Below are positions 17,702-61,649 of a stretch of 64,000 nt of DNA, piece after piece. The position numbers and the translations under genes were made by a program. Source of the stretch: Cliona cf. orientalis (lineage: Eukaryota; Porifera; Demospongiae; Clionaida; Clionaidae). Every line of letters begins with the position of its first letter. The first letter of the stretch is position 1. The notes under the pieces are model-generated. The model saw nothing but the letters and a program-made list of their open reading frames with translations, ran no database searches and was not told where the DNA came from. Location of the stretch: the NCBI GenBank assembly GCA_963930775.1, contig OZ005690.1, positions 10,504,411-10,568,410 on the forward strand. Direction: 5' to 3'.

Positions 17702-17736
17702 GTGACGTGTTCGAGTGAATCCACTAACCTATATAA
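17702..17736 (+). promoter_or_regulatory. A2 core promoter: GTGACGTG and TATA box
   Basis: GTGACGTG (17702-17709) is 20 bp before TATATAA (17730-17736), followed by CAGCAGGATTC. The ATG is about 83 bp downstream of the TATA box. The 620 bp upstream is the conserved A-type flank, including a copy of TTATTAACAGTTATTGTTA near 17625. Confidence 0.65.
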
Positions 17737-17818
17737 CAGCAGGATTCTTCAGCTCAGATCAGCCAGCCAATTAGCTATAACTCTATATGAATCCCGGCAG
17801 GAAGAATTTTATTTGAAT

Positions 17819-20646: not shown

Positions 20647-20742
20647 CAGCAGGATTCTGCAGCACATCAATTTTAGCCAGCCAACTACGTAGCTACAACT
20701 GTAATTGTTTTATACTTAACCCAGGAACAATTTTACTTTAAA

Positions 20743-26057: not shown

Positions 26058-27282
26058 TATTAGATGTGGAGTTAGACTGAGTCAAGGCCCACACATAAAT
26101 ATCTTCCTTTGGGGAGTCCCATCGCATTGCGCGGTCCCTAGCCGCTGCCTGGCGGAAGAGGCGATCATATTCAATAACCGAGGGTGCGAGATATCGTGAA
26201 AAGAGTAAGGCTACCACTGTTTGATACTTGACTAATTCTAGGGCCATTGTTGGATCTGACGCAATTCTGCAGGTCGCATACCGATTCCATGCCTCCAGCC
26301 AGGAGTTGAGGTCTGTAACCTGCCGTTTCTCAAGTTTACGCTTCTTGGAGGATTTATGGCTACCCGCAAATAGTGGTGGTGTGTGGGGGGGGAGTAAGAG
26401 TTTATCAAAGTTTACGTACTTACCCCGCTTTATCCGGTCTTGCAGGTGTCCTGATAAAGGCGGGGCACATGAGATGGATGCCACACCTGTTGTACTAGAG
26501 GTGTGACGTCTGCTGCGTCGGCTGCGGTGTTTACGACTGCGACGGTAGCGTCGATGATGAGATGAAGATGAGGTGCTTGTAGAAAATGTGTACGAAGATG
26601 TTGAGGTAGATGACAGGGAGCTGTCCCTATGGCGGTGATGTCTGTGTCGACGTGGTGACTCGGAGGAAGTGCTACGCGAACGTCTGTACCTCCGATGTTT
26701 CGGCGGTGGCGCATGAGAGTGACTTGCATGGCGCTTCCGTGCCCTAGTACTGTGCTCCTTACTGGATGCACTGGATTGGCTGTCACTGAGGGAATGTTCC
26801 TCTGATGAGGTGCTATGAGAGCGCTGTCTGCTGCGGTGCCTTGAATAGGGTTTTGCCCTACGGGACCTGCTTTTGCGACCACCACTGGGTGGACTTCTGG
26901 GGCTGCCTTGCTCTCCGCTGGGAGATTCCTGGCTGCCAGTATCCTCTTCTGAATCGCTGGATTCATGGGGGGTAGGTTCGCGTGGGGGCGGAGCCTCGGG
27001 TTGAGTGCTTTTTTGTCTCTTTTTGCCCCCAGCTCTGGAGTTCTTTTGCTGCCCGCTAGATCGCTGGATCTTTTTAGCGGCAATGGAACGGAGGTGGTAC
27101 GTAAGGCGCTCGGCCAGCTGTTGCTTTGTACCGGTGGTTGGTAACTGGTAGCTGGCGAGATACCCACGGAGCATGTCCACGCGTAATTTCTTCACCGACG
27201 CTGGTGATGGACCTACTGGAACCAAAGGACGACGGCGTGCTCCGCTCCGAAGTCTTTTTGGTGTGGTAGTGAGTCGTGGCAT
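25774..27282 (-). CDS. Gag-like protein of the DIRS-like element (SAP region and CCCH finger)
   Basis: A protein of 502 residues from the ATG at MPRLTTTPKR; the frame is open 33 bp further upstream but only from a non-ATG codon. Residues about 30-65 look like a SAP motif (LRGYLASYQLPTTGTKQQLA). A long Ser/Arg- and His-rich disordered segment follows. A conserved helical region then begins near YVNFDKLLLPP and includes DLNSWLEAWNRY. A CCCH-type zinc finger sits near the C-terminus (CKRFNLGKCTKGEDCIFAHN-C). The expected role is packaging element RNA. The arrangement resembles gag proteins of marine-invertebrate DIRS elements. Confidence 0.75.
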   Translation of the reverse strand: MPRLTTTPKRLRSGARRRPLVPVGPSPASVKKLRVDMLRGYLASYQLPTTGTKQQLAERLTYHLRSIAAKKIQRSSGQQKNSRAGGKKRQKSTQPEAPPPREPTPHESSDSEEDTGSQESPSGEQGSPRSPPSGGRKSRSRRAKPYSRHRSRQRSHSTSSEEHSLSDSQSSASSKEHSTRARKRHASHSHAPPPKHRRYRRSRSTSSESPRRHRHHRHRDSSLSSTSTSSYTFSTSTSSSSHHRRYRRSRKHRSRRSRRHTSSTTGVASISCAPPLSGHLQDRIKRGKYVNFDKLLLPPHTPPLFAGSHKSSKKRKLEKRQVTDLNSWLEAWNRYATCRIASDPTMALELVKYQTVVALLFSRYLAPSVIEYDRLFRQAAARDRAMRWDSPKEDIYVWALTQSNSTSNNVASHFSTGNNLSGGNSTSQSFRDRVPIAARLGPPVKPNTPNTDRATHLPSGKEICKRFNLGKCTKGEDCIFAHNCWHSNCQGDHPGKGCPKRF

Positions 27283-27540
27283 CACTACTGACAAACAGCG
27301 AGCTTTTCTTAGCAAAAATAGCTGCCAAAAAGCACATGGAAACTGCGCATGCGCAGAACCATACTAGAATTAGGCATTACATCATCAGAATGCCACCATG
27401 TTAACATTAACCACAGTTTAGAGTCCCTAAACCAAATTTATTGAGAATATTCCCAATCCTTATCTCAGTGCACAATCATGCACATGATGTATGCACACAT
27501 AAACTGCAACTTATATAATAATATTATATCTATACAATAG

Positions 27541-28448: not shown

Positions 28449-30313
28449 ATGGAACTACGTTTTCTACAATTATTGCTGATATTGCAGTGTAGGATTGCTT
28501 ATTATGCTGGATCTGCAAACTCTATTTCACCGGTACCAGCATCAGTTCATTCAGTAAGTGGCATTCAAAAACTATCGAATCATACCGAGTGTCCAATGTG
28601 GTTTAACTATAGCTCGGCTACAAATGATTGCCAGTGCTTCCAATTTGCATCACTTAAGTGTGATAACTATAACCATGTATCTGTTAACCCAGATCTGATA
28701 CTGACATACAAATCGAACAAAGGGTTAATCTCGTCAATTAAAATACGGCACCAATATCTAGGAGGGTATAATCTGACAGAGACAGGATATGTAGTATTAC
28801 CAGATGAAATTTCTGAGCTCAATTCGTACATGTGTGGGCCATTGAACAGAAAGGGTTACTTATGTGGTGAGTGTAAGAGTGGATATGGGCCTGGACCGTT
28901 AGTAACATCGTGTACAAATGTATGCCATTTTTGTCAAGACACCTGGCATGAGATTATACTGTATCTAGCACTGGAATTTATTCCAATAACTGTATTTTAT
29001 CTTCTCATTCTTATCTTTCAAATTCGACTAACATCAGCACCAATGACATGTTTCATCACGTACAGTCAGCTAATTATGCTGGCATTTTATAAGGATTGTG
29101 CAAGCCAATGGGCACCGTCGTTTTTCAGTGAAATAAAATATAGCCGCAGTGGAACTCTTAGATTTGGCACTAAGAGCCTTCTTACTGTATACGGAGTGTT
29201 TAATCTCGATTTTCTTCACTACATTTTGCCTCCGTTTTGCATTAGTAGCCAATTGAGGTCCATTCATGTTGTATTTCTTGGCTATATTTCACCATTTTAC
29301 CCTTTCCTACTAATACTTCTCACATGGTTTTGTGTTGAGCTCCATGGTTGTAACTTTAGACCAATCGTGTGGCTATGGAGGCCATTCCATGGATGCTTTG
29401 CTCGACTAAGGAGAGGCTGGAACACCAACTTGCAAGAGCGATCTCATCGATGTCTTTGCTTCTTTCTTTCTCCTTTCTTACAGCAAAATTTTGTATCAGA
29501 TAAATTGTTCTTACAATGGATGATACAAGAATATGTAACTATTCTTTAGTTGATGGTCATGGCTCTCGAGAAAATTTTGTATTTAGTGTTGATACCAGTA
29601 TTGACACAAAAAGTGCAAGACACGTATTGATTCTTTCTATTGTTTTACTTCATCTTGCATTTGTCGTTTTCCCAGTATGCTTACTGCTTCTATATCCTTT
29701 TGGAATATTTCAGAGATTGTTATCAAGATGCACTTCAAATCGATTCAGAATAATCATTCACATCTTTGTTGAGAAATTCCAGTCGTGTTACAGAGATGGA
29801 CCCGATAGCTCAAAAGGTATAAGAAGTTTCTCAGGATTTTATTTTGTGTTGAGGTTCATAATTTATCTTGCTAACGTGATAAATCACTCAACTTTTCGTT
29901 TTGAGATGTGGTTTGTTTGTGGATTCGTACTCTCAGTGGCTGCCCTTCTTATTGCACTCTGCAGACCTTATAAGGAAACTACCATGAATGTTGTCGATAG
30001 CATCTTCTTGACACATTTGGCAACATTCTGCTATATTATAGCATCTTCAAATAATGAAAGTCGAGTCTATGTGACTTTTTTTCAGATAGTGATCGCTTTT
30101 CCATTTATAATATTTAGTTTGATAATTGCCTATAGAATAGTAAGAGGAATCTGCAATAACCACAAAGTGCACTTTCTGAAACAGTTGTTCTGGTGGCGAT
30201 TTTTCAAAGCTAGTGGTCATGATGGTTTGATAACTGCTGATAATATAGATCAGCAACAAGATGTCAACATTCAACCAACAGCTACTTATGGCACCATTTC
30301 AGACTTACCATGA
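28449..30313 (+). pseudogene. A4: frameshifted subfamily A copy
   Basis: It opens normally (MELRFLQLLLILQC) and matches the family to RRGWNT near 29425. There a 7-bp insertion shifts the frame, and 4 extra bases near 29503 do not restore it (net +2). The rest of the family sequence continues in another frame to TYGTISDLP. The promoter and most of the sequence are otherwise well kept, so inactivation is recent. If expressed, it would give a protein truncated after the fourth or fifth membrane segment. Like A2 and A6, it carries the inverted VEGF-tail relic upstream. Confidence 0.8.
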
Positions 30314-30839: not shown

Positions 30840-31815
30840 TCATTTATGTAATGATGCTATACAATTGGTCCATAGGCAACATTCCCTTTTAGTTCAACCA
30901 GGTCCTGATGGTCTGATGTTGATCTCTGTTGTAATTCTTCATATATAGAGGTCCTGGAGTTTGAGAATGTTCAGATCCTTCAATGTGGCGTAAATTATTC
31001 TCCTTGTGTGAATTGGATGCTGCTTTCCTTGTACGTGATTGCTTATGCTTATGACCAAACCAGCAACAAGCACATCCAATGGAAAGGAAAATTATTGAGC
31101 TTATGGCACACACGGCGATCATAATTATTATGATCCATGAGAACACAGGTATCAAAGTAGCAGTTCCAGTTGTAGGTATCATTAACGAGGCTTCTGCATT
31201 TGAGAAAAGAAATGTTAAATTTGGAGATCTCGTAATTAGAAATCTTCTAATTAGGATGAGAAATGTGTCTGATTTGAATGGCAATTATCAGCCACCGTAT
31301 CATTACTGTATATGTGGCTACTGTTTACTGTGGATATTAAATGGGTGGATATTTCCTATTATCAATAATTTCGAATTGTCTCATTAGTTTTCTGACTTCC
31401 AGCAATACATTTCTCTTCTTTTCAATTGATAGACACATATCATAGACTAAGTGTCATTACTTCCTATTACCAAATTTGATATTGTTTTTCCAAATTTGAC
31501 ATTTCCTGTTAGCTATAGGCTTAAAAGGTCCTCTTGGAGTTGGCCATGGGGGAAGATACCACTCTCAGATTTCATCTATTGATTTTTTGTACTGAATTCT
31601 ATCAAAATTCAATACCCATGCACAGAATTTATATATAGCATGCAATGTTTTTAACATTCATGCTGTTTATATGTACAACGTGAAGTTCTTTCTTTAATAA
31701 TGTTTTTGGTTGACTTTGGCAAAACATAAAAAATCAATGGAGCATAATATATATTATAGGATGTCAGCATGTTTGTAAGGTTGAACGTGCTTCGATCAAC
31801 AGCATCTCCATGGTG
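30840..31815 (-). pseudogene. Partial duplicate of the Ig-FN3 receptor's membrane/tail exon and intron
   Basis: This matches 39.56-41.12 kb in direct orientation. From the acceptor equivalent at 31193 the minus strand reads ASLMIPTTGTATLIPVFSW, a transmembrane helix and the CCWFGHKHKQS basic stop-transfer region, then HSQTPGPLY. A 2-bp insertion shifts the frame there, and the QDLVEL..NVAYGPI repeat follows out of frame. Only one tail repeat is present, against five in the main copy. The Ig and FN3 exons are missing. Upstream of the exon the intron sequence is also duplicated, so this is DNA duplication, not retroposition. Confidence 0.75.
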
Positions 31816-32126: not shown

Positions 32127-33700
32127 TGGAGTTGACAGAGACAGGACGTGTATTATTACCAGATGAAATTTTTGAGCTCAATTCGTACATGTGTGGGCCA
32201 TTGAACAGAAAGGGTTACTTATGTGGTGAGTGTAAGAGTGGATATGGGCCTGGACCGTTTGTAACATCGTGTACAAATGTATGCCATTTTTGCCAAGACA
32301 TCTGGCATGAGATTATACTGTACCTAGCGCTGGAATTTATTCCAATAGCAGTATTTTATCTTCTCATTCTTATCTTTCAAATCCGACTAACATCAGCACC
32401 AATGACATGCTTCATCACGTACAGTCAGCTAATTGTGCAGGCATTTAATGAGGAGTGTGCAAGCCAATGGGCACCATCACTTTTCAGTAAAAATTAATAA
32501 AATATGGTTACTACAGTGGAACTCTTAGAATGGGCACTAAGAGCCTTCTTACTGTATATGGAGTGTTTAATCTTGACTTCTTTCACTACATTTTTCCTCC
32601 ATTTTGCATCAGTAGCAAGTTAAGACCTATTCATGCTGTATTTCTTGGCTGTATTTCAGCGTTCTACCCTTTCCTACTAATACTCCTCACATAGTTTTGC
32701 GTTGAGCTCCATGGTCGTAACTTTAGACCAATCGTGTGGCTATGGAGACCATTTCATGGATGCTTTGTTCGACTAAGGAGAGGCTGGAATACCAAGAGTG
32801 ATCTCATCGATGTCTTTGCTTCTTTCTTTCTCCTTTCTTACTGCAAAATTTTGTATCAGACTGTTCTTACAATGCATCATACAAAAATATGTAACTATTC
32901 CTTAGTTGATGGTCATGGCTCTCAAGAATATGTTTTTAGACTTGATATTACCAGTATTGGCACAAAAAGTGCAAGATACTTATTGATTCATTCTTTACTT
33001 TGTCTTTCATTTGTCAGTTTCCCACCATGTTTGCTGCTGCTATATTTTATTATCCTGTAGGAATATTTCAGAGGTTATTGTCAAAATGCACTTCGAATCG
33101 ATTTAGAATAATCCTTCACATCTTCGTCGAGAAATTCCAGTTTTGGTACAGAGAGGACCCGATAGCGCGAAAGGTATAAGAAGTTTCTCAGGATTTTTTT
33201 TTCTATTGAGGTTCATAATTTATCTTGCTAATGCACTAATTTAAAATCACTTAATGTTTCATTTTGAGATGTGGTTTGTTTGCGGATTCGTACTCTCAGT
33301 GGCTGCCCTTTTTATTGCACTCTGTAGACCTTATAAGGAAACTACCATGAATGTTGTTGATAGCATCTTCTTGACATATTTGGTAGCTAACACTCTGCTA
33401 GCTATATAGCGTCTTCAAATAATGAAGGTCAAATCTAGCTATGCGAATGTTTTTCAGACAATGATTGCTTTTCCATTTATAATATTATTAAGTTTTACAA
33501 TTGTCTACAGAATAGTAAGAGGAATCTGTAATAGCTAATTGTAAATTGCACTGAGGCTTTCCAAAACGGTTGTTCCGGTGGCGATTTTTCAAAGCTAGTG
33601 GTCATGATGGTTTGATAACTGCTGATAATATAGATCAGCAACAAGATGTCAATATTCAACCAAAAGTTACTTACGGCCACACCATTTCAGACTTAATTAG
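32127..33700 (+). pseudogene. A5, 3' portion: degenerate subfamily A copy
   Basis: Family sequence resumes at LTETGRVLLPDEI and can be followed to the tail. The copy is broken by an insertion giving a stop near 32497, a TGG-to-TAG change near 32693 in the WFCVEL segment, an insertion near 33045, and several small indels between 33200 and 33560. About 190 bp of ectodomain is missing between this part and the inverted 5' part. It is the most decayed A copy and clearly non-functional. Confidence 0.85.
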
Positions 33701-33846
33701 TACCATGATTTGCATCAAATTTTTGATCAAGCATGATATTTTATTAACCCTCGCCGCAAAGCGTAGGCGGAGGGTTACTGCAGTTGTTTGGCGATTTTTG
33801 TTCGTCCGTCCGTCCGTCCGTGCGTCGCAACCCTCCTTTACTAAAT

Positions 33847-33860
33847 GGTAAGGGTCGTCA
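33847..33860 (+). promoter_or_regulatory. Recurring 14-bp motif inside the inserted element
   Basis: GGTAAGGGTCGTCA lies just inside the element's left end. A one-base variant (CACGATCCTTACC) occurs near 34280 and its mirror near 34826. Presence within a mobile element suggests transposition as one way the motif spreads. Confidence 0.4.
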
Positions 33861-39583: not shown

Positions 39584-42500
39584 CTATGCAATTGGTCCAT
39601 AGGCAACATTCTCTTTTAGTTCAACCAGGTCCTGATGGTGTACATTTGTTCCATAGGCAACATTCTCTTTTAGTTCAACCAGGTCCTGATGGTCTAGATT
39701 TGTTCCATAGGCAACATTCTCTTTTAGTTCAACCAGGTCCTGATGGTCTACGTTTGGTCCATAGGCAACATTCTCTTTTAGTTCAACCAGGTCCTGATGT
39801 TCTGATGTAGGTCTCTGTTCTAATTTTTCGTATGGAGATCCTGGAGTTTGAGAATGTTCAGATTCTTCAATGTGGCGTAAATTATTCTCCTCGGCTGCAA
39901 TTGGTCCATAGGCAACATTCTCTTTTAGTTCAACCAGGTCCTGATATTCTGATATTGATCTCTGTTCTAATTCTTCGTATAGAGATCCTGGAGTTTGAGA
40001 ATGTTCAGATCCTTCAATGTAGCGTGAATTATTCTCCTCAGCTGAATCGGATGTTGCTTTTCTTGTACATGATTGCCTGTGCTTACGACCAAACCAGCCA
40101 CAAGCACATCCAATGGAAAGGAACACTATTGAGCTTATGGCACACATGATAATTATTATCAATGAGAACACAGCTATAGCTATCGAAGTAGCAGTTCCAG
40201 TTGTAGGTGTCATTAATGAGGCTTCTGCATTTGAGAAAAGAAATGTTAAACTTGGAAATCTCAAAATTGTCAACCACCGTATCCTTACTGTGTATAATAT
40301 TCACTGTTGGACAAATGGGTGGATAATATTTCTTATTACCAGTTTTGAATTACCTTATTTAAAATTAATTATAATTTTCTGCATGACTTCCAGCAATACA
40401 TTTATCTTCTTTTCAATATAGACACATGTCATAATGTCATTAGCTACTTCCTATTACCAAAGGGCAGTGGCTGCAGTTCACTCTCCCTGGATTCTGGCTT
40501 TGAAGATATGATTTTCAATTATACAATCGCCTGTGACTAGCTATAATAATATTATTATTATAAAATATATTATGCCGGTAACTCTATTATAGTTATACTA
40601 GCTCTCTACTACACCTTGTTGTTGGTGTGTCATATATCGAATACCGGTATTAAATAATAAGAACCACGGGCTGTGGGCCGCAGGCTGCTGGGGGGGGGGG
40701 GGGGGGGGGCTACTTGTGATAATATTCATGATTGCTAATAATTAATGACTATTATCACTGCATGTACACACTTTAATCTTGACCCTATATACAAAATATT
40801 ACAATACATCTTACAAGGTTCTATCACTCGGTGACACATGATACCACTCTCAGATTTCATCTATTGATTTTTGTATTGAATTCTATTATATATCAAATAC
40901 CCATGCACAGAATTTATAGCAATGTTTTAACATTCATGCTATTTGCATATACAATTTGAAGTTCTTTCTTTACTATAATAATTCTTAGAAGTGTTTTCGG
41001 TTGACTTTGGCAAAACGTAAACAATCAATGGAGCATAATAATATATTAAAGGATGTCGGGATGTTTGTCAGGTTGAACGTGCTTCGATCAACGTACAGCC
41101 ACTCCATGGTGACATTTGAATGCTGCATGTCATTCAGTACTTATACTGTATCTTTCCTTCACTTGCCATTGTTATGTGATAGCAATTGCATGCTAGTATT
41201 GATCAGTAGTCACACTACTGCAGTCCATGCATTTAAATTTTAGTTCCAAAAGCATGTGAATTAATTTTTTAAGATAACTTAAAGTCACACGTTTTTCAGA
41301 ACTTAGATTAAGTATAGAAAGCAGTACTGAGCTTATAATTGATTGATACTATGGAAATAATATAATCATAGGTGTACAAAAGAATATGCATGGTAATTTC
41401 TTATCAGCATTTTGTTGATTCGCATGCATGTGACTAGAAGTGAGTGCAACTGAGACAATCCATGTTAGGTTAATATGACCAACTACTTTTTGTAGTTAAC
41501 ATAATACAATATTACGTACGTATACGTATGTAAACAACTCTCCTTCTTTTGTGGGTTGCTGAACGCCCAAAATTTAATATAACATGAACAATCGGGTGCA
41601 TGCAGCAGGGGATATCGATGAACAAAGCAAACTAGCTCACCTGCTATCATACAAATTAAATATTATTACTGTAACAGGTCTGCAAAAACTATTGGGTCAT
41701 GTTAACCTAACATGGGTTATCTCAGTTGCACTCATGCACTTCTAGTCACATGCAAATCAACAAAATGCTAACAAGAATTAAATCAGTGACCATATTCTTT
41801 TGTACACCTACTACATGAGTATGTACATTAATACTGCTTTCTATACTTGGCATTATCTAATCTAAATTCTGAAAAATATGTGATTTATCTTAAAATAATT
41901 GATATATTTTTCAGAACTAAAATTTAATCTATGGACTGCAGTATTGTGATTACTGATCAATACTGTGTAAACCATTGCTATCACTGTGACACAACAATGG
42001 CAAGTGAAGGAAACTTAAGGATCTGATGATTTCTTGTCGGCTATTTTTGTTGACTTACATGTGCTAGAAGCAAGTGCAACTCAGATGACCCATATTAGGT
42101 TAATATGATCCTGGGCCACCGGTTTTGCAGAGATATTATAACAGATATGTACATGTATAACACACTATGATGGCCGGCTTTCAGTGATATCATAATTATA
42201 ATTTACTACTGACCATGATTAACTTTTAAATACTTACTAGAAGTAGAAGCAGATCCACCTTCAGTAGTAGTAAATAATAGACTTGCCTGCACTTCAACAT
42301 TTGGTCCTTCACAGCCAAAATGATTTACAGCAGCAATTTGTATATAAACATCATCATTATGACAGTTTGGTATTATGTGAAGAAAGTGTACAGAAGGAGC
42401 AGATGTAGAGTCAGCTGTGATGTTTTGTGATGTAACATTAACTATAATAATATTATACTGAGCAATGTCAGATGGATTGGAGTTAGCAGGAGGATCCCAA

Positions 42501-43152
42501 GTAACCAAAATGATGCAGATATTATCAAGAGGTTGTGGAATTTCTGCTGCACTGATCCCCTGCGGTACCCCAGGAACAGCTAAAATGTGTGTCATATGTG
42601 TGAAATAATTAAACTGAGGTACAAGCTTTACTATTATGGAGGGAGCATGCATAGTGACTGCATGTGGAATGTCCCCAACACCACTCTTTTCCCAGTGGAA
42701 CCTCCGAGTGCCAGACTGTTAGTCTCACAAAAAGGAGTAATAATAATACTGAGCTAATTGTATGCATGCACCTGAGATAGAAAACCTGATACTTGCTGGA
42801 CCTCCACTTGTACCATTGCATGTCACCACAGAAGCCTCAACGGCAGTAATACGTAACGTGGACTCCAGTACAAGTTCTCCGCTGACATTAGATGAATTGT
42901 TTGTCACTGTTGCAGTTGCTGTTATATTCCCATCCATAATTATACTATTTAAAACTGTTCCAAGCACTGTTAAGAATCGAAGTGAGCCACCTTGCCCAAT
43001 GTACTCAGTGCTACTCCAATCAAGAACTAAGACTGACAAATTTGATGGGGCTCTTATTGTACAAGTGAAGATGACCTCTTCTCCTTGACATGTGCGATTT
43101 CCCTCACGTAGTGTACTAGTTAACTCTTGACATGATACACATACTGCTGCAG
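39584..43152 (-). CDS. Ig-FN3 single-pass receptor with ITAM-like and repeated tyrosine motifs in the tail (5' exons unresolved)
   Basis: Three exons join in phase 1: 43152-42772, 42579-42238 and 40224-39584. Exon 1 is an Ig-like domain (EEVIFTC, LDWSS, VVTC) with many N-glycosylation sites. Exon 2 is a fibronectin type III domain (VPGVPQGISAAEI, LVTWDPP, AAVNHFG). Exon 3 has a short Thr-rich linker, one transmembrane helix (about IAVFSLIIIIMCAISSIVF), a GWFGRKHRQ stop-transfer and a tail of about 160 residues. The tail holds SLYEEL, YQDLVELKENVAYGPI, SPYEKL and four further HQDLVELKENVAYG copies. YQDL-x8-YGPI fits the ITAM consensus; SLYEEL, SPYEKL and VAYGPI fit the ITIM pattern. Phase 1-1 exons are typical of shuffled Ig/FN3 modules. 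A signal-peptide exon must lie upstream. A candidate donor near 43976 has the right phase, but no start codon was found in that frame. Function as a signalling cell-surface receptor is inferred. Confidence 0.75.
39586..39800 (-). repeat. 54-bp tandem coding repeat in the receptor tail
   Basis: Four consecutive units of 54 bp each encode an 18-residue unit ending in QDLVELKENVAYG. A separate, longer duplication of about 46 residues (HSQTPGS..YE.LEQR..SE) lies before it at 39800-40010. Repeat copies are nearly identical at DNA level, indicating recent expansion or homogenisation and likely copy-number polymorphism. Confidence 0.85.
41153..42013. repeat. Large inverted repeat inside the receptor intron
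   Basis: The outer ends TTTCCTTCACTTGCCATTGTT and its mirror near 41992-42013, together with inner segments such as TAGTATTGATCAGTA, CTTTCTATACTT and CATGTTAACCTAACATGG, form arms of roughly 330 bp around a spacer at about 41484-41692. Pairing is imperfect but extended. It lies between the FN3 exon and the membrane exon. A third partial arm follows at 42045-42110. Confidence 0.65.
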
Positions 43153-44590
43153 CTAAATATAATAATATGCAAAGTGTGGAATATGCAAGGAGCTGTTACA
43201 GTATTAATTATATCATTGAATATACATGATAAGTTGATACAAATTAAATGTGCAGGCAGTTAATTGGATCCAATGGGCAAGTTACCTTAAAAGCTTCTAT
43301 AATTGAATAATGGATCATTCAATATGCCATGCATTGGGATCACCAGATTCACCACACATTCATAATAATAACTATTATAATAAAATATTATCACAGCAAA
43401 AACAAGTGGATTACAGTTAGCTACTGTAATCTAATATGGGTTGCCTCAGTTGCTCTCCATGGCATGCACATTCGCATCATAGTTATCATAATCCAGTTAA
43501 TTACAGATATCAGTATGTCAAACTTGCCAGTTTATGAGTAGTTATTAAAACTGGCATATTCTACTACATACTTCTATAGTATGATGTATGATTGCAACAT
43601 TAAATTTGTGTGCTCTGCCTAATAGCCTTTATGTAACTATATATGCACATTCACTGAGTGTAATACAGTTACTATAATATTATATAAATTCAAGAACATT
43701 CGATCATGAGATATTAAGTGGTAGCATGCCAGTTGTATTCTAGAACATGCATGCACTCATGGGACAAGTGGTACGTGCAAGAATGCCAGTTTGTTATTCA
43801 CAAACTGGCTTGCATGTAATTTGATATACTTATAGAGTTACTTTTAGTATTATGAGACTCAGATAGGAGGTAATAATATTATAGTGTATGCAACTGAAGC
43901 AATCCACAATATATAATAATATAGCTTTTGTAAATTCAAGATAATGACTAATTTATTGCACTCACCACACAAAAGTGTCCACGACAAACACAGTTGCTTG
44001 AACCAGTCCTGTACATGTAGCTATCATAATTATTATAGTAGCTATATACAAGAATAATGAAAATGTAGCTATTATTATACGTAAGCTCAGTCATTCTGAG
44101 TAAAATCGCATCACAGTAGCCGGTAGCTATAGTAGCTAGCTATATATCACTAGCTAATATTAATTTTATCATGCTATTAATCGTCTTTCTGCATGCCATT
44201 CAATATACGGTGTATAGCTACGACACAGGAGATATATATAAGGAGGTAATCCAACCTCCACCAAACGTTTAAATTTCTTGCATTGGCATCATTGGACGTC
44301 GACCATGCATATAGCCTGTAACTATTAATTGCGAAACTACAACAGGCAACCCACCCAGTAGCTAACTGACGCTTGGCCGTGACCAAGCGTGAATTTTGGG
44401 CTTAATACTCACGGCAGGTAGCTATAGTAGCTAGCTACCCAAGCAACGGGCAGGGTTTTTTTTTTTTTCTTGACTACCTTTATAAACTCACCATATGCAT
44501 CTTATCCACAAATCTAGTGTCTCGTAGCTAATGGGAGTAGTCGAAGTGGTCCTATTATTATGATGACCCATCATACAATATTATAGCTCC
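43153..44590. other. Upstream region of the Ig-FN3 receptor, no resolved gene
   Basis: It contains a single MITE end related to the element at 38947 (near 43390) and CACAAACTGG/GCCAGTTTGTG inverted fragments near 43785. A possible splice donor on the minus strand near 43976 is preceded by a short Trp/Leu/Cys-rich stretch that could belong to a signal-peptide exon. No start codon could be assigned. The rest is AT-rich DNA without open frames of note. Confidence 0.35.
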
Positions 44591-46503: not shown

Positions 46504-48306
46504 TATGCTGGATCTGCAAACTCTATTTCACTGGTACCAGCATCAGTTTATTCAGTAAGTGGCATTCAAAACCTATCAAATCATACTGAGTGTCCAATGT
46601 GGTTTAACTATAGCTCGGCTACAAATGATTGCCAGTGCTTCCAATTTGAATTACTCAAGTGTGATAACTATAAGCATGTATCTGTTAACCCAGATCTGAT
46701 ACTGACATACAATTCACACAAAGGGTTAGTCTCGTCGATTAAAATACGGCACCAATATCTAGGAGGATACAATCTGACAGAGATAGGATATGTATTGTTA
46801 CCAGACGAAATTTCTGAACTCAATTCGTACATGTGTGGGCCATTGAACAGAAAGGGTTACTTATGTGGTGAGTGTAAGAGTGGATATGGGCCTGGACCGT
46901 TTGTAACATCGTGTACAAATGTATGCCATTTTTGCCAAGACACCTGGCATGAAATCATACTGTATCTAGCACTGGAATTTATCCCAATAACTGCATTTTA
47001 TCTTTTCATTCTTATCTTTCAAATTTGACTAACATCAGCACCAATGACATGTTTCATCACATACTGCCAGCTAATTGTGCTGGGATTTTATAAGGATTGT
47101 GCAAGCCAATGGGTACCATCGTTTTTCAGTGAAATAAAATATGGTTACTACAGTGGAACTCTTGGAATGGGCACTAAGAGCCTTCTTACTGTATATGGAG
47201 TGTTTAATCTCGACTTCTTTCACTACATTTTTCCTCCATTTTGCATCAGTAGCAAGTTAAGACCTATTCATGTTGTATTTCTTGGCTATATTTCAGTGTT
47301 CTACCCTTTCCTACTAATACTCTTTACATGGTTTTGTGTTGAGCTCCATGGTCGTAACTTTAGACCAATCGTGTGGCTGTGGAGGCCATTTCATGGCTAC
47401 TTCACTCGACTAAGGAGAGGCTGGAACACCAAAAGTGATCTCATCGATGTCTTTGCTTCTTTCTTTCTCCTTTCCTATAGCAAAATTTTGTACCAGATTA
47501 TTCTTACATTGCAGGTTAAAGGAATACATAACTATTCGTTAATCGATGGTCATGTCTCTCGACAAAATTATGTACTCAATTTTGATACTGGAATTGATAC
47601 AAAGGGTGCAAGATACTTATTGCTTCTTTCTATTATTGTTTTACTTTGTGTTGCTTTTATCAGTTTCCCAGCATGTGTACTGCTGCTATATCCTGTAGGA
47701 ATATTTCAGAGATTGTTGTCGAAATGCACTTCGAATCGATTCAGAATAATCCTTCACACCTTCGTCGAGAAATTCCAGTCTTGTTACAGAGACGGACCCG
47801 ATAGCGCAAAAGGTATAAGAAGTTTCTCTGGATTTTATTTTCTGCTGAGATTTGCTATTTATCTTACTCCATCAATAAATCGTCATATTTTTTATTTTGA
47901 TATGTGGCTTGTTTACGGATTCATATTCTCAGTGGCTGTCCTTCTTATTGCACTCTGCCGACCTTATAAGGAAACTATAATGAATGTTGTCGATAGCATC
48001 TTCTTGACACATTTGGCAACACTCAGCTATATAGCGTCTTCAAATAATGAAAGTCGAATCCATGTGAATTTTATTCAGACAATGATTGCTTTTCCATTTA
48101 TAATATTTAATTTGATAATTGTCTACAGAATAGTAAGAGGAGTCTGCAATAATCACAAAGTACACTTTCCGAAACGGTTGTTCCGGTGGCGATTTTTCAA
48201 AGCTAGTGATCATGATGGTTTGATAACTACTGATAATGTCGATCAGCAACAAGATGTCAATATTCAACCAAAAGCTACTTACGGCACCATTTCAGACTTA
48301 CCATGA
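46504..48306 (+). pseudogene. A7: subfamily A copy lacking promoter and signal peptide, with a nonsense codon
   Basis: The conserved flank that follows the VEGF-like stop codon (ATGAAATGGCTATCTAGCT, GGCTGACTCT) joins directly to the ectodomain at YAGSANSIS. This deletes the whole promoter, the ATG and the signal peptide (about 0.9 kb). A CGA-to-TGA change near 47026 then stops translation inside the first membrane segment region. The remainder (from TCFITYCQL to TYGTISDLP) is a single open frame and well conserved. Without promoter, start or secretion signal the copy is very likely dead. Confidence 0.8.
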
Positions 48307-48887: not shown

Positions 48888-49440
48888 TCTATGAAGGGAG
48901 AATGGGTTTCTTATAAATCAGCTGGTAACTGCTATCCTTCTTGAAGACATATCACACTGTATAATAATTGAGAATATTCCCAATACTTGTCTCAATGTAC
49001 CTTGTAATATATACTATATTATTATATGAAAATTCATTAAAATACTTATTATAGCCGATTATCTACTTACTTTTGAAAACATAGTGAGTGGTATTTTAGC
49101 TCTTAGGAAAACCTCAGATAATGGATTAACTTTTGTTTAGTTTATAGTAGAAACAAACATCCAATTCTAAGCAGGTTTACATAATATACAAGTATTATTA
49201 TTCTATTCATCTGTGTTATAGTTATATAACAGGTTAGAAGGATATACAAACTATAATAGTAATAGCTACATGCATAAATTGGTCAGATTCTGTGAGCTAC
49301 AATCAGTAGGGGGCTATCGGCTAGATTATATGATTCAGTGAGTGCACAGCTGGCGTAAACAACTAGCTATAACTAAATAGTCCAGCAAACATTAGCTAGA
49401 AAGCTTTGATTACTGAGCACTTTATAGCAAATTATATAGA
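48888..49440 (+). promoter_or_regulatory. 5' flank of B1
   Basis: The last 180 bp (GTCAGATTCTGTGAGCTACA, GGGGGCTATC, GATTCAGTGAGTGCACAG, GTAAACAACTAGCTATAACT) are shared with B2, and in part with B3 and B4. There is no TATA-CRE module like that of the A genes. The earlier part is A-type 3' flank, then AT-rich DNA. Confidence 0.45.
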
Positions 49441-51318
49441 ATGAAGTTTTTGAAGGTAGTGATCATATTATTACAGTTTCAGTCAGCGGCACATCACGCA
49501 GTTGCCTTGTCAACGCATGCTCAATATTCTCAGAGAGACAGCCATGCTCTGTCGAATCAAAACAGCACTGAGTGCCCATCAGTTTGGTTTGAGTACAATC
49601 AGGTTACACAAGATTGTGAATGCATAGCTTATCTATTCTTGAATTGTGAAGGAGAAATTGTGTACGCTGACACTCATCAAATATTGACATTTGACTCTAC
49701 CGGAGGAATAATCTCTGCTTTTAAGATGAGGCATGAATACTTAGAAGGCTACAATTTAACAGTCACAAAAGATGGATCAACTGGTATACTGCTGCCGAAT
49801 AATATCTCTGAACTCAATTCGTACATGTGTGGGCCTCTGAATAGGGAAGACTATCTGTGCAATAAATGTAAAAGTGGATATGGACCACCTGTGATATCCG
49901 AGTCAGCGTCGTGTGCAAATGTGTGCTATTTGTGCAAAGATTCATGGATTCCAAAAGATTTATTGCTCTATCTGTCTCTCACTTTTATTCCGCTCACTCT
50001 GTTCTATCTTCTCATTCTTGTATTTCAAATCAGGCTAACCTCCGCTCCAATGACATGCTTCATCATGTACAGTCAGCTAGTGGTTTTGGGATTCTATGAA
50101 GAGTGTGGCCTCAAACCTTCAGATTATATACTTAGTCAGATAAAATTTATGGAAAATGGAAATACTCTTAGAATAGGTACTAAAATCCTTCTTAACTTAT
50201 ACGGAGTCTTTAATCTCGACTTCTTTCACTACGTTTTGCCTCCATTTTGCATCAGTAGCAGGTTAAGACCTATTCATGTCTTCTCTCTAGGCTACATAAC
50301 GGCATTTTACCCTTTCCTACTAATACTTCTCACATGGTTTTGCATTGAGCTCCATGGTCATAATTTTAGACCAATCGTGTGGCTGTGGAGGCCATTTCAT
50401 GGATGTTTTGTTCGACTAAGGAGAGGCTGGAACACCAAAAGTGATCTCATTGATGTCTTTGCTTCTTTCTTTCTCCATTCCTACAGCAAAGTTGCGTATC
50501 AGATTAATATGTTAACTTTTGATACTGAAGAGATAATAAGTCATTCTTTGATGGATGGCAAAAAATCTCGTGGTTATGTACTCAGTGCTGATCTTAGTAT
50601 CTTGACGCCTACGAGATTTGATGGTTATATGATTTTTATGGTCTGTTTTTCGGCTCTTTTGGTTCTCTTATTCGTAGTCTTGCCGATATTTTTGCTGTGT
50701 TTTTATCCAACAAAAATCCTTCGAAATCTTCTCTCAAAGTGTTTGAGCAGCAGATTCCTGATTTTCCTTAACATTTTCATGGAGAAATTTCACTGTAGTT
50801 ACAGAGACGGATTAGATGGTACAAAAGACATGAGGAGCTTTTCAGGAATCTACTTTCTACTCAGAATAATGATTTACTTTACTGTGGCTTTTAGCAGAGC
50901 AACTCTCAATTTGGATCCATATTTTGCTCGAGGATTTATTTTCTCAGTTGCTGCTCTCATCATCGCTTTAAGTCAACCTTACAAAAGGAAGTACATGAAT
51001 ATCATGGACTGCATCTTGCTATTTCAGTTGGCAACATTCTGCTATGTAATAGCGTCAACTACCAGCTTAAATGGCAAGCCTGCCATTCTTCTGCCAATGA
51101 TGTATGTGATACTGGCTTTCCCCTTTGTCTTCATTTTCCTGTTAGCTATTTATAGAATGACTTATGGCATTTTGATAAGATCATGCTTCAGTCAGTGGTC
51201 ACCACTGCCACAATGTTCAGCATGTCTGAAAAGCGCAAAAGTTGAGATCTGTAGCAGTTTTATATCTCAGAACCTATCATCACCAGAGACTACAATGTCA
51301 TATGGAACCATAAATTAA
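49441..51318 (+). CDS. B1: multi-pass membrane protein, subfamily B
   Basis: An intact single-exon gene of 625 residues. It has a signal peptide (about 1-23) and an ectodomain with CPSVWFEYNQVTQDCEC, NCEGE, a YNLT glycosylation site, MCGPLNREDYLCNKCKSGYG and a CANVCYLC pair. The same nine or ten membrane segments as subfamily A follow. The ectodomain and distal membrane region are clearly diverged from A. The stretch from about 265 to 350 is nearly identical to A (HYVLPPFCISSRL, RGWNTKSDLIDVFASFFL). B1 keeps A-like HYVLPP where B2-B4 have SYFLP or SYFLH. The tail contains extra cysteines (CFSQWSPLPQCSACLKSAK) and ends SYGTIN. The function is unknown, as for A. Confidence 0.8.
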   Translation: MKFLKVVIILLQFQSAAHHAVALSTHAQYSQRDSHALSNQNSTECPSVWFEYNQVTQDCECIAYLFLNCEGEIVYADTHQILTFDSTGGIISAFKMRHEYLEGYNLTVTKDGSTGILLPNNISELNSYMCGPLNREDYLCNKCKSGYGPPVISESASCANVCYLCKDSWIPKDLLLYLSLTFIPLTLFYLLILVFQIRLTSAPMTCFIMYSQLVVLGFYEECGLKPSDYILSQIKFMENGNTLRIGTKILLNLYGVFNLDFFHYVLPPFCISSRLRPIHVFSLGYITAFYPFLLILLTWFCIELHGHNFRPIVWLWRPFHGCFVRLRRGWNTKSDLIDVFASFFLHSYSKVAYQINMLTFDTEEIISHSLMDGKKSRGYVLSADLSILTPTRFDGYMIFMVCFSALLVLLFVVLPIFLLCFYPTKILRNLLSKCLSSRFLIFLNIFMEKFHCSYRDGLDGTKDMRSFSGIYFLLRIMIYFTVAFSRATLNLDPYFARGFIFSVAALIIALSQPYKRKYMNIMDCILLFQLATFCYVIASTTSLNGKPAILLPMMYVILAFPFVFIFLLAIYRMTYGILIRSCFSQWSPLPQCSACLKSAKVEICSSFISQNLSSPETTMSYGTIN

Positions 51319-53009: not shown

Positions 53010-54865
53010 ATGGAACTACATTTTCTACAACTACTGCTGATATTGCAGTGTGGGATTGCATATGCTGGATCTGCAAACTCTGTTTCACTGATACCAGCAT
53101 CAGTTTATTCAGTAAGTGGCATTCAAAACCTATCAAATCATACCAAGTGTCCAATGTGGTTTAACTATAGCTCGGCTACAAATGATTGCCAGTGCTTCCA
53201 ATTTGAATCGCTTAAGTGTGATGATAACTATAAGCATGTATCTGTAGACCCAGATCTGATACTGACATATAATTCACACAAAGGGTTAATCTCGTCAATT
53301 AAAATACGGCACCGATATCTAGGAGGATATAATCTGACGGAGACAGGATATATACTATTACCAGATGAAATTTCTGAGCTAAATTCATACATGTGTGGGC
53401 CATTGAACAGAACGGGTTACTTATGTGGTGAGTGTAAGAGTGGATATGGGCCTGGACCGTTTGTAACATCGTGTACAAATGTATGCCATTTTTGCCACGA
53501 CACCTGGCATGAGATTATACTGTATCTAGTACTGGAATTTATTCCAATAACTGCATTTTATCTTCTCATTCTTGTTTTTCAAATTCGACTAACATCAGCA
53601 CCAATGACATGTTTCATCACATACTGCCAGCTAATTGTGCTGCTATTTTATATGGAGTGTACAAACCAATGGGCACCATCGTTTTTCAGTAAAATAAAAT
53701 ATGGTTACCACAGTGGAACTCTTAGAATGGGCACTAAGAGCCTTCTTACTGTATATGGAGTGTTTAATCTCGATTTCTTTCACTACATTTTGCCTCCTTT
53801 TTGCATTAGTAGCCAACTGAGGTCCATTCATGTTGTGTTTCTTGGCTATATTTCAGCGCTCTACCCTTTCCTACTAATACTTCTCACTTGGTTTTGCGTT
53901 GAGCTCCATGGTCGTAATTTTAGACCAATCGTGTGGCTATGGAGGCCATTCCACAGATGCTTTGTTCAACTAAGGAGAGGCTGGAACACTAAGAGTGATC
54001 TCATCGATGTCTTGCTTCTTTCTTTCTCCTTTCCTATAGCAAACTTTTGTACCAGATTATTCTTACATTGCAGGCTAAAGAAATACATAACTATTCTTTA
54101 GTTGATGGTCATGTCTCTCGACAAAATCATGTACTTAATTTTGATACTGGAATTGATACAAGGGGTGCAAGATACTTATCGATTCTTTCTATTATTGTTT
54201 TACTTTGCCTCACATTTATCAGTTTCCCAGCATGTTTACTGCTGCTATATCCTGTCGGAATATTTCAGAAATTGTTATCGAAATGCATTTCAAATCGATT
54301 CAGAATAAATCCTTACATCTTTGCCGAGAAATTCCAGTCTTGCTACAGAGACAGACCCGATAGCGCGAAAGGTATAAGAAGTTTCTCAGGATTTTATTTT
54401 CTGTTGAGGTTTGCTGTTTATCTTGCTCCATCAATAAATAGTTCTACTTTTCATTTTGAGATATGGCTTGTTTGCGGATTCGTACTCTCAGTAGCTGCCC
54501 TTCTTATTGCACTCTGCAGACCTTATAAGGAAACTACCATGAATGTTATCGATAGCATCTTCTTGACACATTTAGCAACAATCTGCTATATAGCGTCTTC
54601 AAATAATGAAGGTCGAAACTATGTGATTTTTTTTCAGATAGTGATCACTTTTCCATTTATAATCTTCAGTTTGACAATTGCCTACAGAATAATAAGAGGA
54701 ACCTGCAATAATCACAAAGTACACTTTCTGAAACGGTTGTTTCGGTGGCGATTTTTCAAAGCTAGTGGTTGTGATGGTTTGATAACTGCTGATAATATAG
54801 ATCAGCAACAAGATGTCAATATTCAACCAAAAGCTACTTATGGCACCATTTCAGACTTACCATAA
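53010..54865 (+). pseudogene. A8: subfamily A copy with a single 1-bp deletion
   Basis: Promoter, ATG (MELHFLQLLLILQCG), ectodomain and membrane region are intact up to RRGWNTKSDLIDV. A single T is missing from GTCTTTGC near 54013. The downstream sequence continues in the shifted frame without further damage to TYGTISDLP. One frame error in an otherwise clean copy could be a real recent inactivation, a polymorphism or an assembly error. The ectodomain carries an extra residue (KCDDNYKH) and CHFCHDTW. Confidence 0.75.
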
Positions 54866-55582
54866 TTATGCATAAACTCTTGATCATGCACGACATTAAT
54901 TCACATATATAATTATATTGTAGGCGTGAGTATCTGACATAGTTTAGTCATCTACATTGATCATGATCAGATTTGTAAAATAAAAGTTAATTTATTGTAG
55001 TCATCAATTTTATATAATTAAAGTATCTTTAGAACGTACTGGAAGGAGCCACTCCCAGTGGTAGGCAGTAACAATTAAGATTGAGTCAGTCAAGGATTGC
55101 CACGCATGCGTGATACCATAACTGCCTCATGCTTGAGGTAATTAAATTAACTCATACAGTGAGTAATAATATTATTATTGAGAATAATATTCCCAATGTT
55201 TGTATCAATGTACATGCATGCACAGAGTATATACAGACTAAGAGCAACTTAACTTGTTATTATTATGTGAAAGTTTATTAAAACGTATAATATGTGTTAT
55301 ATAGCAGATAATTATGAAACTATTAATAATACATGCATAAATTGGTCAAACTCTGTGGAGCTACATTATCGTTACAATCAGTAGTAGGGGGCTATCAGCT
55401 AGATTATGATTCAGCTATCAGCTATCAGTTGTGATTCAGCTATCAGCTAGATTAGCTATGATTCAGTGAGTGCACAGTTGGCGTAAACAACTAGCTATAA
55501 CTACTTAGTCCAGCAAACATTTAATTTAGTACAATTAGCTAGCAAGCTTTGATTAGTAAGCACTTCATAGCAAATTATTAGA
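54866..55582. other. A8-B2 intergenic region with B-type 5' flank
   Basis: It starts with a short A-type 3' flank. From about 55330 it is the B-type flank shared with B1 (GGTCAAACTCTGTGGAGCTA, GTAGGGGGCTATCAGCTAGA). A small tandem expansion of the GATTCAGCTATCAGCTA type lies at 55395-55465. There is no gene in the interval. Confidence 0.45.
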
Positions 55583-57469
55583 ATGAGATTTTTTAAGGTG
55601 GTGATCACATTATTACAGTTTCAGTCAGTGTCATATGCACTGCCAGCTGCCTTGTCAATGAACGCTCAATTTTCTCAGAGAGATACTCATGTTCTGTCAA
55701 ACCAAAACAGCTCTGATCACAAGTGTCCATCAGTTTGGTTTGAGTACAACCAGGTTACACACGATTGTCAATGCATAGGTTATCTATTTGTGAATTGTGA
55801 AGGAGAGAGTGTGTACGCTGACACGCGTCACATATTGACGTATGATTCTACTAGAGAAATAATCTCTGCTGTTAAGATGAAGCATAAATACTTGGAAGGT
55901 TACAATTTGACAGTCACAAAAGATGGATCAAGTGGTATACTGCTGCCTAATAATATCTCTGAACTCAATTCATACATGTGTGGGCCTCTGAATAGGGAAC
56001 ACTATCTGTGCAATAAATGTAAAAGTGGATATGGACCACCTGTGACATCCGAGTCAGCATCATGTGCAAATGTGTGCTATTTGTGCAATGATTCAATGAC
56101 ATGGATTCCAAAAGATTTATTGCTATATGTGTCTCTCAATTTTATTCCACTCACTCTGTTCTATCTTCTCATTCTCATATTTCAAATCAGGCTAACCTCC
56201 GCTCCAATGACATGCTTCATCATGTACAGTCAGCTAGTAGTTTTGGGATTCTATGAAGAGTGTGGCCTCGAATCTGCTATTTCAGAGTCTGTATTTAGTC
56301 AGATAAAGTTTACGGACAAGGGAAACACTCTTAGAACAGGTACTAAGATTCTTCTTACCTTATATGGAGTGTTTAATCTCGACTTCTTTAGCTATTTTTT
56401 GCCTTTGTTTTGTATAAGTAGCAGGTTAAGACCTATTCATGTCTTCTCTCTAGGCTACATAACGGCATTTTACCCTTTCCTACTAATTCTACTCACATGG
56501 TTTTGCGTTGAGCTCCATGGTCGTAACTTTAGACCAATCGTGTGGCTATGGAGGCCATTCCATAGATGCTTTGTTCGACTAAAGAGAGGCTGGAACACCA
56601 AAAGTGATCTCATCGATGTCTTTGCTTCTTTCTTTCTCCTTTCCTACAGCAAAGTTGTGTATCAGATTATGTTAACTTTTGATTCTGAAGAGATAATAAG
56701 TCATTCTTTGATTGATGGCAAAAAATCTCGTGGTTATGTACTCAGTGCTGATCTTAGTACCTTGACGCTTACAAGATCTGATGGTTATATGATTTTTATG
56801 GTCTGTTTTTCAGCTCTTTTGGTTCTCTTATTTGTAGTCTTGCCGCTATTTTTGCTGTGTTTTTATCCAACAAAAATCCTTCGAAATCTTCTCTCAAAGT
56901 GTTTGAGCAGCAGATTACTGATATTTCTCAACATTTTTATGGAGAAATTTCACTGTAGTTATAAAGACGGATTAGATGATACAAGAGATATGAGGAGCTT
57001 GTCAGGAGTCTACTTTCTTCTCAGAATAATAATTTACTCTGCTGAGGCTTTTAGCATAGTAACTCTCAAGTTGGATCCACATTTTGTTCATGGATTTATT
57101 TTCTCAGTTGCTGCTCTCATCATTGCTTTATGTCGACCTTATAAAAGGAAGTACATGAATATCATGGACTGCATCTTGCTATTTCACATGGCAACCTTCT
57201 GTTATATAATAGCATCAACTACCAGCTTAAATGACAAGCCTGCCATTTTCCTGCCAATGATGTATGTGATGCTGGCTTTTCCCTTTATCTTCATTTTCCT
57301 GCTAGCTATTTATAGAATGACTTATGGCATTTTTAGAAAATGTTTCAGTCAGTGGTCACCACTGCCACAGTGTTCAGCATATCTGAAAAGTGCAAAAGTT
57401 AAAATCTGTGGCAGTTTCACATCTCAGAACCTAACATTACCGGACACTACGTATGGAACCATGAACTAG
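55583..57469 (+). CDS. B2: multi-pass membrane protein, subfamily B
   Basis: An intact single-exon gene of 628 residues, the longest copy. Signal peptide, CPSVWFEYNQVTHDCQC ectodomain, MCGPLNREHYLCNKCKSGYG and CANVCYLC are kept. Small insertions distinguish it from B1 (SSDHKCPS, NDSMTW, ECGLESAISES). The conserved core ELHGRNFRPIVWLWRPFHRC-F is essentially that of subfamily A. The tail ends TTYGTMN, with Met in place of Ile after the tyrosine. A consensus AATAAA follows the stop by 10 bp. Function is unknown; context suggests a surface receptor or channel. Confidence 0.8.
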   Translation: MRFFKVVITLLQFQSVSYALPAALSMNAQFSQRDTHVLSNQNSSDHKCPSVWFEYNQVTHDCQCIGYLFVNCEGESVYADTRHILTYDSTREIISAVKMKHKYLEGYNLTVTKDGSSGILLPNNISELNSYMCGPLNREHYLCNKCKSGYGPPVTSESASCANVCYLCNDSMTWIPKDLLLYVSLNFIPLTLFYLLILIFQIRLTSAPMTCFIMYSQLVVLGFYEECGLESAISESVFSQIKFTDKGNTLRTGTKILLTLYGVFNLDFFSYFLPLFCISSRLRPIHVFSLGYITAFYPFLLILLTWFCVELHGRNFRPIVWLWRPFHRCFVRLKRGWNTKSDLIDVFASFFLLSYSKVVYQIMLTFDSEEIISHSLIDGKKSRGYVLSADLSTLTLTRSDGYMIFMVCFSALLVLLFVVLPLFLLCFYPTKILRNLLSKCLSSRLLIFLNIFMEKFHCSYKDGLDDTRDMRSLSGVYFLLRIIIYSAEAFSIVTLKLDPHFVHGFIFSVAALIIALCRPYKRKYMNIMDCILLFHMATFCYIIASTTSLNDKPAIFLPMMYVMLAFPFIFIFLLAIYRMTYGIFRKCFSQWSPLPQCSAYLKSAKVKICGSFTSQNLTLPDTTYGTMN

Positions 57470-60842: not shown

Positions 60843-61649
60843 GTAATTACGCATTATACTACTTCACAACTGGTATTTAATGTTCTTGATAACATGGCAG
60901 AATTCGAAGGTTAATATTTTTATGCATTTCGACATCATATTATAATAGTAGCCTAATTAATAATATTATTACATACGGTAGTTAGCTAACAGCAGTTGTC
61001 AATGAGTATATATAATACAATCATACTAGTATACATGAAAGTATAGATCATCATGAATATTATACTGGCAGCCATGCAGTAGTTAGTTCATAATTAGCTA
61101 TCAATCTATATTAAGTGAGGTACTATGGCTACAGTCAGTTGGGGGTATTATATTAACTAATTTTGTAAACAATTAGTAGACTTATAAGTGTTACAGTATT
61201 TTTTACTCCATGCAACCAGTTTCGATCCATATAATATTATGCAATGGATGCACATAGCAGTATCTAGTTCACATAATATTCAAGATAGCTATAGTCAGCT
61301 ATCAATTGAGGTACTACGGCTACAGACAGTTGGGGGCTATTAACTAAATTATGATTCAGTAAGTGAACAACTAGACTAAGTGTGTTATTGCTCATAATAT
61401 AGTACATGCAACCAGTTTCCGTATACAATGGGAGCACGTACTAACAGTTTATTGTTAAGTGTTACATGTCTCCATAATATTATTATTGCATATATGGAAA
61501 AGGTTGGAGTATAAGAACGATAACACACTCTGTTGATTGAACAACCATGAACCTCTTTGCGTAAACAACTAGCACCTAATATTGAGTCTTAGTAGCATTA
61601 GTATATACAGATCAGTCAAGCCTCAGAATCTAACACTTCATACGTTATT
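60843..61649. repeat. Duplicated B3-type 5' flank upstream of B4
   Basis: About 60850-61080 repeats 58297-58540 closely (TTCTTGATAACATGG, CATACGGTAGTTAGCTAACA, ATACAATCATACTAGT). This defines a duplication unit of roughly 2.6 kb that produced B3 and B4. Within 61130-61390 a shorter segment with CAGTTGGGGGCTATTA-type sequence is itself repeated. The last 40 bp before the ATG (TCTAACACTTCATACGTT) are shared with B3. No gene is present. Confidence 0.6.

Follow-up and report, generated by a model that had tools for sequence, protein, structure and literature searches.

A two-tyrosine tail conserved in a clustered family of probable receptors of the sponge Cliona cf. orientalis, with ITAM spacing as a rare variant

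A locus in the demosponge Cliona cf. orientalis raises the question of whether an early-branching animal has receptors of an immunoreceptor-like kind and, if so, which tyrosines of the tail would carry the signal. The stretch of DNA analysed here, called the window, comprises 64,000 nucleotides (C2:10504411-10568410) of a genome of 216.8 Mb in 149 contigs, and positions given without a contig count from its first letter. The original prediction for it was a receptor with an Ig/FN3 ectodomain and a tail in which two tyrosines have the spacing of an ITAM. The features of the window gene are as follows.

39584..40224, minus strand: last exon, encoding the membrane helix and the cytoplasmic tail up to the stop codon (open frame, acceptor AG before a phase-1 start)
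40091..40186, minus strand: membrane helix SIAIAVFSLIIIIMCAISSIVFLSIGCACGWF with a basic stretch after it (read from the translation)
39968..39979, minus strand: YEEL, with the first tyrosine of the conserved pair (kept in all 28 stop-free paralog tails)
39899..39946, minus strand: YQDLVELKENVAYGPI, with ITAM spacing through a His-to-Tyr change, the conserved part being ENVAYGPI (translation and paralog comparison)
42238..42579, minus strand: FN3-like exon, phase 1-1 (Pfam fn3 below cut-off; paralog alignment)
42772..43152, minus strand: Ig-like exon, phase 1-1 (alignment with 29 paralog Ig-like exons)
43967..44008, minus strand: uncertain candidate piece of a signal-peptide exon, DWFKQLCLSWTLLC (phase-1 donor, no in-frame ATG)

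As predicted, YQDLVELKENVAYGPI is encoded at 39946-39899 on the minus strand after a membrane helix, and it lies within a 238-aa open frame. The helix, a run of 32 hydrophobic residues located upstream of the motif in the same frame, is followed by GRKHRQSCTRK and, read from the sequence, this basic stretch after the helix (positive-inside) implies that the tail should be cytosolic. The upstream exons have AG acceptors and GT donors with every junction in phase 1, and those of the ectodomain are an Ig-like and an FN3-like exon only, without a Sushi-like exon. By the search settings used, the 3.5 kb ahead of the Ig exon of the window gene had no ATG-initiated signal-like exon, and DWFKQLCLSWTLLC is the only candidate for a signal-peptide exon.

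The predicted Ig/FN3 ectodomain is suggested by exon layout, phases and paralog alignment, with domain profiles giving at most weak matches. Pfam fn3 matched the window FN3-like exon at E 0.012-0.023, scoring 15-16 bits where the cut-off is 25, and the exon is for this reason named FN3-like only; the paralog FN3-like exon tested had no Pfam fn3 match, and the window exon aligned with paralog FN3-like exons at 13-20%. The window Ig-like exon had no Pfam match and owes its assignment to the alignment with 29 paralog exons, at 18-26% identity, with three Cys and one Trp invariant over the 30 rows. Pfam ig and Ig_3 each matched one of these 30 rows weakly (E 0.018 and 0.042), and an unrelated Pfam model matched five members of the same set. 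A profile search with the Ig-like exons gave 12 weak matches with antibody and TCR chains among them (best E 0.15), and tblastn of the window Ig-like and FN3-like exons against 20 paralog loci gave no match at E 0.01. Among the exons tested only the first Sushi exon scored above the Pfam cut-off (E 5.5e-5), and the names of all other domains are tentative, resting on weak matches and layout.

A genome search with the TM-tail region returned many paralogs. There are about 120 tail-exon matches (E <=0.001), of which 100 lie on C2 in a span of 3.4 Mb (10.5-13.9 Mb) and 14 on C11, counted by similarity as merged rows, some partial, of three queries (51, 97 and 21), namely the window TM-tail region and two distant tails. 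An ENVAYG codon pattern occurs 121 times in the genome and its reversal not once, and the 100 sites listed of these 121 form 87 groups, nine of which have more than one site, indicating that the family is large and that repeated ENVAYG units recur elsewhere. At C2 11.04-11.45 Mb, ENVAYG sites stand in twos or threes at eight places, with 99-218 bp from one to the next, so that other members there also seem to have repeated tails; three of these distances (103, 109 and 218) are not divisible by three. Of 33 cluster tails in the loci examined, 22 have Ig-FN3-Sushi-Sushi exon matches upstream, two of these with a divided second Sushi match; another 2 have Ig-FN3-Sushi and 2 have Ig-FN3, and for the remaining 7 the exon set is incomplete within the stretch examined. 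In 17 of the 27 cluster genes tested, the 600 bp ahead of the Ig exon contain a signal-like exon with similar counterparts in three or more other genes, which argues for a tail inside the cell. The window gene is an outlying member of this large clustered family of cell-surface receptors, which are probably type I.

The window holds a second member of the family, which is likely degraded, since a frame shift lies inside its tail.

30845..31284, minus strand: frame-shifted TM-tail exon of the second family member

About 15 TM-tail exons at C11 2.22, 6.67 and 8.85-8.89 Mb and C14 3.22 Mb make up a subfamily of their own, related to one distant member (L055); the tail of L055, the one member of this subfamily read, ends VYEEV...ENVAYGHI.

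On the strand opposite the receptor tails, the window carries a multi-TM family in multiple copies, whose ectodomain is Cys-rich. A regular expression for a YGxI/M end picked out ten of its frames, which finish with ATYGTISD(LP), TTYGTIN, TTYGTMN or MSYGTIN, an ending that resembles the receptor tails, and a further frame at 33555-33851 has YGHTISDL and then reads on.

14714-16597, 17666-19681, 20677-22602, 29504-30313 and 47029-48306, plus strand: multi-TM frames 1-5
49417-51318, 53999-54865, 55571-57469, 60386-60802 and 61602-63509, plus strand: multi-TM frames 6-10

The conserved pair of the receptor tails consists of YEEL and ENVAYGPI, with a distance between the tyrosines of 20-23 residues in the 31 of 33 tails that have both. 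This motif set comprises tails, in the loci examined, with ENVA and the helix pattern, including that at C11 8885331, with one overlapping duplicate removed and the tail of L042 not counted. Both the YEEL and the YGPI tyrosine are invariant in all 28 stop-free paralog copies, a set defined as stop-free matches covering at least 85% of the composite query, with partial or shifted copies and C2:12824895 left out. Over the approximately 34 columns of the tail motif in these copies pN/pS was 0.15 (pS 0.19 vs pN 0.03), which shows purifying selection, with values of 0.71 for the TM and juxtamembrane part, 0.59 for the Ig-like, 0.62 for the FN3-like and 0.63 and 0.64 for the Sushi-like exons. A second set, in which the window copy is included (n=29), gave 0.157 for the tail, 0.807 for the TM and 0.705 for the juxtamembrane part. 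The YEEL tyrosine is encoded by TAC in 18 and TAT in 10 of the 28 copies, and with such synonymous variation recent copying alone does not explain the conservation.

The motif extends beyond the cluster. Y(E/D)(E/D)(L/V) and ENVAYG are both present in two C2 tails and one C11 tail that are 30-37% identical to a cluster tail, a fourth tail (L056, 29% identical) has ENVAYGPL with the first tyrosine absent, and the related tail of L042 reads KNAAYGPL, also without a tyrosine at the first place. Across 12 aligned tails, chosen by hand as diverse, E, N, V, A, Y and G are invariant and are preceded by ELK in 9; the conserved block thereby reaches several residues ahead of the second tyrosine, beyond the need of a plain SH2 site, and a hydrophobic residue at +3 from that tyrosine is present in nearly all tails of the 33-tail set. 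The second tyrosine fits the ITIM expression (S/I/V/L/T)xYxx(I/V/L) in 31 of the 33 tails, the misses being C2:12824895, with a stop just before the tyrosine, and one tail ending VAYGPT. The first tyrosine fits in 2, the window copy being one of them, with the misfit mostly due to Pro at -2. Two ITIMs in one tail were rejected on this count, and of the motifs originally remarked on as ITIM-like, VAYGPI holds up across the family but the first tyrosine does not.

The window tail matches YxxL/I-x(6-8)-YxxL/I, as do two other family tails (3 of 33 in all), and contains a second pair of ITAM spacing through the same tyrosine, YEEL-x7-YQDL. Shuffled window tails had the pattern in 333 of 20000 cases, and the expression occurred 14 times in the open frames of the window of at least 80 aa. 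As 11 of these matches fall in a single hydrophobic stretch of the unrelated multi-TM family, the pattern alone is weak evidence. Within the window gene the tyrosine stands in a tail that has been copied in tandem.

39754..40044, minus strand: 147-bp unit, spanning the whole tail unit, duplicated in tandem (TRF, 2 copies, 93% matches)
39592..39803, minus strand: 54-bp tandem repeat of xQDLVELKENVAYG, 3.9 copies (TRF)

The two 147-bp units are identical at 134 of 147 bases, and the five xQDLVELKENVAYG units differ in their DNA core at the first base only. The opening codon is TAT (Tyr) in the first unit and CAT (His) in the remaining four, which bears out the original observation of His in the other repeat copies.

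The ITAM spacing of the window receptor arises from a rare single-base change, the codon of the first tyrosine being one C>T step from His. The pattern (H/Y)QDL(V/I)ELK occurs at 38 sites in the genome, all on C2, these being sites and not genes; six are inside the window, five of them units of the window gene and one in a paralog. The codon at the first position, read in 35 of the 38, was CAT in 32 and TAT in 3. A Tyr-specific pattern, spanning fewer codon choices, found the same 3 sites genome-wide and no further one, and did not match the three unread sites. Among the 28 stop-free paralog tails, from which the window copy is excluded, the position is His in 25, Tyr in 2 and Asp in 1, and it was Tyr in none of the four distant tails read. 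An ITAM pair conserved in the family was rejected on these counts, and conservation of the first tyrosine in relatives, set beforehand as a test of the prediction, largely fails.

The three Tyr sites have a single identical 20-base match in common. A tree of 29 TM-tail sequences does not unite the three Tyr copies in one clade; well-supported branches reject such a grouping and force at least two changes, and a shuffle test on the same tree gave no sign of clustering of the Tyr copies. The copy with its tail at C2:13311262 has a full Ig-FN3-Sushi-Sushi set upstream, and in that at C2:13393430 the second Sushi-like match is frame-split, suggesting that this copy may be damaged. With three Tyr copies in existence and at least two changes to Tyr, a working ITAM in the window copy or in these few copies is possible, and would be derived and rare.

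A protein with paired SH2 domains would be the partner of the tail under the ITIM-like and the ITAM reading alike. The genome has 103 SH2 matches, and by Pfam SH2 and PTP domain coordinates there are three SH2-SH2-phosphatase loci, each on one strand, of which one is on C8 (about 9.936-9.938 Mb) and two are on C4 (7.445-7.514 Mb); at one C4 locus the two SH2 matches are 9.8 kb apart. No SH2-SH2-kinase arrangement was found among the 119 of 2511 kinase candidates scored. The adjacency scan covered all 103 SH2 rows, 58 picked kinase rows and 10 picked phosphatase rows, with the other listed kinase rows inspected by eye. A Syk-family sequence of the sponge Amphimedon has been used as an outgroup, as given in the available text of PMC9601881.

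We give roughly even chances to the reading that this is a diversified receptor family with a conserved two-tyrosine, ITIM-like docking tail bound by a two-SH2 protein, the ITAM spacing being a by-product. The ectodomains would vary, with the tail serving as a docking site of the form Y(E/D)(E/D)(L/V), 20-23 residues and ENVAYG(P)(I/L). Upon ligand binding Src-type kinases would most likely phosphorylate both tyrosines and a two-SH2-domain protein would bind the pair, in the manner of vertebrate ITIM/ITSM receptors. An SHP-like phosphatase is the first choice for this protein, given the ITIM fit of the second site, the nearly fixed distance within the pair and the presence of phosphatase loci. 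Weighing against this reading are the poor ITIM fit of the first tyrosine, the tails of L056 and L042 with no tyrosine at that place, the cluster copies with a stop or VAYGPT at the second site, the length of the conserved block and the wide gap between the SH2 matches of one C4 locus. In the window gene, the His-to-Tyr change and tandem copying of the tail would have generated extra tyrosines and, as a by-product, ITAM-like spacing. Phosphorylation of the tail, binding and the sign of the signal are what we infer from the family and its conservation. Of the immunoreceptor-like receptor first proposed, the data support an Ig/FN3 receptor, probably of type I, whose tail has conserved tyrosines; they do not support the ITAM pair as its functional motif.

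Other readings of the tail have to be weighed against the same data. It is unlikely that a PTB or SAP-like domain docks on the residues ahead of the tyrosine (LELKENVAY, of NxxY form), phosphorylated or not; the invariant ENVAYG of the 12 diverse tails, with ELK ahead in 9, would suit such docking, but the NPxY place has no Pro and the nearly always kept +3 hydrophobe better suits SH2 or YxxPhi. By the YxxPhi consensus both YEEL and YGPI could be AP-2 endocytic sorting signals instead of phosphotyrosine sites, a rather improbable reading that also draws on the neighbouring multi-TM frames finishing in YGTI or YGTM; a Tyr and a +3 hydrophobe would suffice for sorting, but some 34 columns are held at a pN/pS of 0.15. 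Least probable is a functionless motif conserved only through recent duplication and gene conversion. Identical DNA cores of the window-gene units, save for the His/Tyr base, and the one identical 20-base match of the three Tyr sites are what recency would leave, but it is largely contradicted as the sole cause by the excess of pS over pN among paralogs and by survival of the motif in tails, including one from a different contig, that otherwise share only 29-37% identity with a cluster tail.

There is a slim chance that YQDL-x8-YGPI works as an ITAM, activating the cell through recruitment of a Syk-type kinase with tandem SH2 domains. Its spacing is exact and YEEL-x7-YQDL fits also, Tyr has been reached at three loci through at least two changes by the tree, the Tyr copy at C2:13311262 has its full Ig-FN3-Sushi-Sushi set, and a Syk-family sequence is known from Amphimedon (PMC9601881, as available). 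Set against this are the His at 32 of the 35 sites read, the absence of Tyr at this place in the four distant tails read, the single C>T step by which it is reached, the possibly damaged copy at C2:13393430 with its frame-split Sushi-like match, and the kinase candidates scored (119 of 2511), none in an SH2-SH2-kinase arrangement. Similarly doubtful is a toggle between His and Tyr by one base, acquired on more than one occasion, that would turn an inhibitory two-tyrosine tail into an activating ITAM tail and so give paired receptors within one clustered family. Paired activating and inhibitory receptors are known among NK receptors, and if the toggle were true an early animal would have such a paired set.

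Under the preferred reading of an ITIM-like docking tail, a close comparison is with the vertebrate ITIM/ITSM receptors PD-1, Siglecs and BTLA, which have two tail tyrosines about 20-25 residues apart. Like these, the sponge family appears to have type I Ig receptors with two spaced tail tyrosines, the second fitting an ITIM, and a genome with SH2-SH2-phosphatase loci; unlike them, its first tyrosine misfits the ITIM in 31 of 33 tails and the conserved block at the second is longer. The likeness is one of analogy, with no homology claimed. With ITAM receptors and adaptors such as CD3 and FcR gamma, the window copy and two others share the spacing, but the pair is not conserved across the family.

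Among invertebrates, the fester co-receptors (FcoR) of Botryllus are described as a clustered multigene family of type I proteins with Ig and Sushi domains, a TM and tails with an ITIM, a hemITAM or a core YxxI/L/V motif (PMC12065747, in the text available). The sponge genes are similarly clustered, with Ig-like, FN3-like and Sushi-like exons, a TM and an ITIM-like tail, a likeness by description and not by sequence; they differ in having an FN3-like exon and another domain order, in the missing Sushi-like exon of the window gene and in that a link to allorecognition is not known here. The Alr family of Hydractinia is given 41 members in one complex (PMC11999971, accessible part), and Hydractinia candidate allorecognition genes are stated to carry ITAM/ITIM motifs (PMC12065747); compared by description, the sponge differs in having one tail common to nearly all members of a subfamily. 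The available portions of the literature treat sponge IgSF proteins as adhesion molecules (PMC11999971), describe sponge, cnidarian and ascidian candidate allorecognition proteins as not conserved, and give cnidarian and ascidian families ITIM or ITAM-type tails (PMC12065747, a 2025 review). A sponge ITIM/ITAM receptor is not given in the accessible text of PMC9505182, and that of PMC8242945 reports diverse receptor families in Halichondria panicea with no statement on ITIM or ITAM. Searches of the open-access literature turned up no description of sponge ITAM/ITIM receptors as a family. Sponge receptors of immunity or self-recognition with a defined signalling tail seem poorly known, and a clustered family of about 120 matches with variable ectodomains and a tail under strong purifying selection would place the logic of the cnidarian and ascidian systems in a sponge, with the conserved tail offering a short, testable peptide.

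Several minor features were seen in passing. The minus strand of the window at 23216-27363 has retroelement-like frames, judged by eye to encode reverse-transcriptase-like and recombinase-like proteins. The genome has 172 reported SRCR matches, with 150 of 2082 candidates scored; this abundance, the SH2 proteins and the genome size are in keeping with a sponge. Weak tail-repeat matches (E 0.008-9) lie amid kinase-domain matches at C15 6.72-6.94 Mb and C7 0.26-0.60 Mb, and may be receptor kinases with similar tails. At C17:2316562-2325288, on the minus strand, a single open frame of 2925 aa contains an SH2 match and ten consecutive tyrosine-kinase-type matches.
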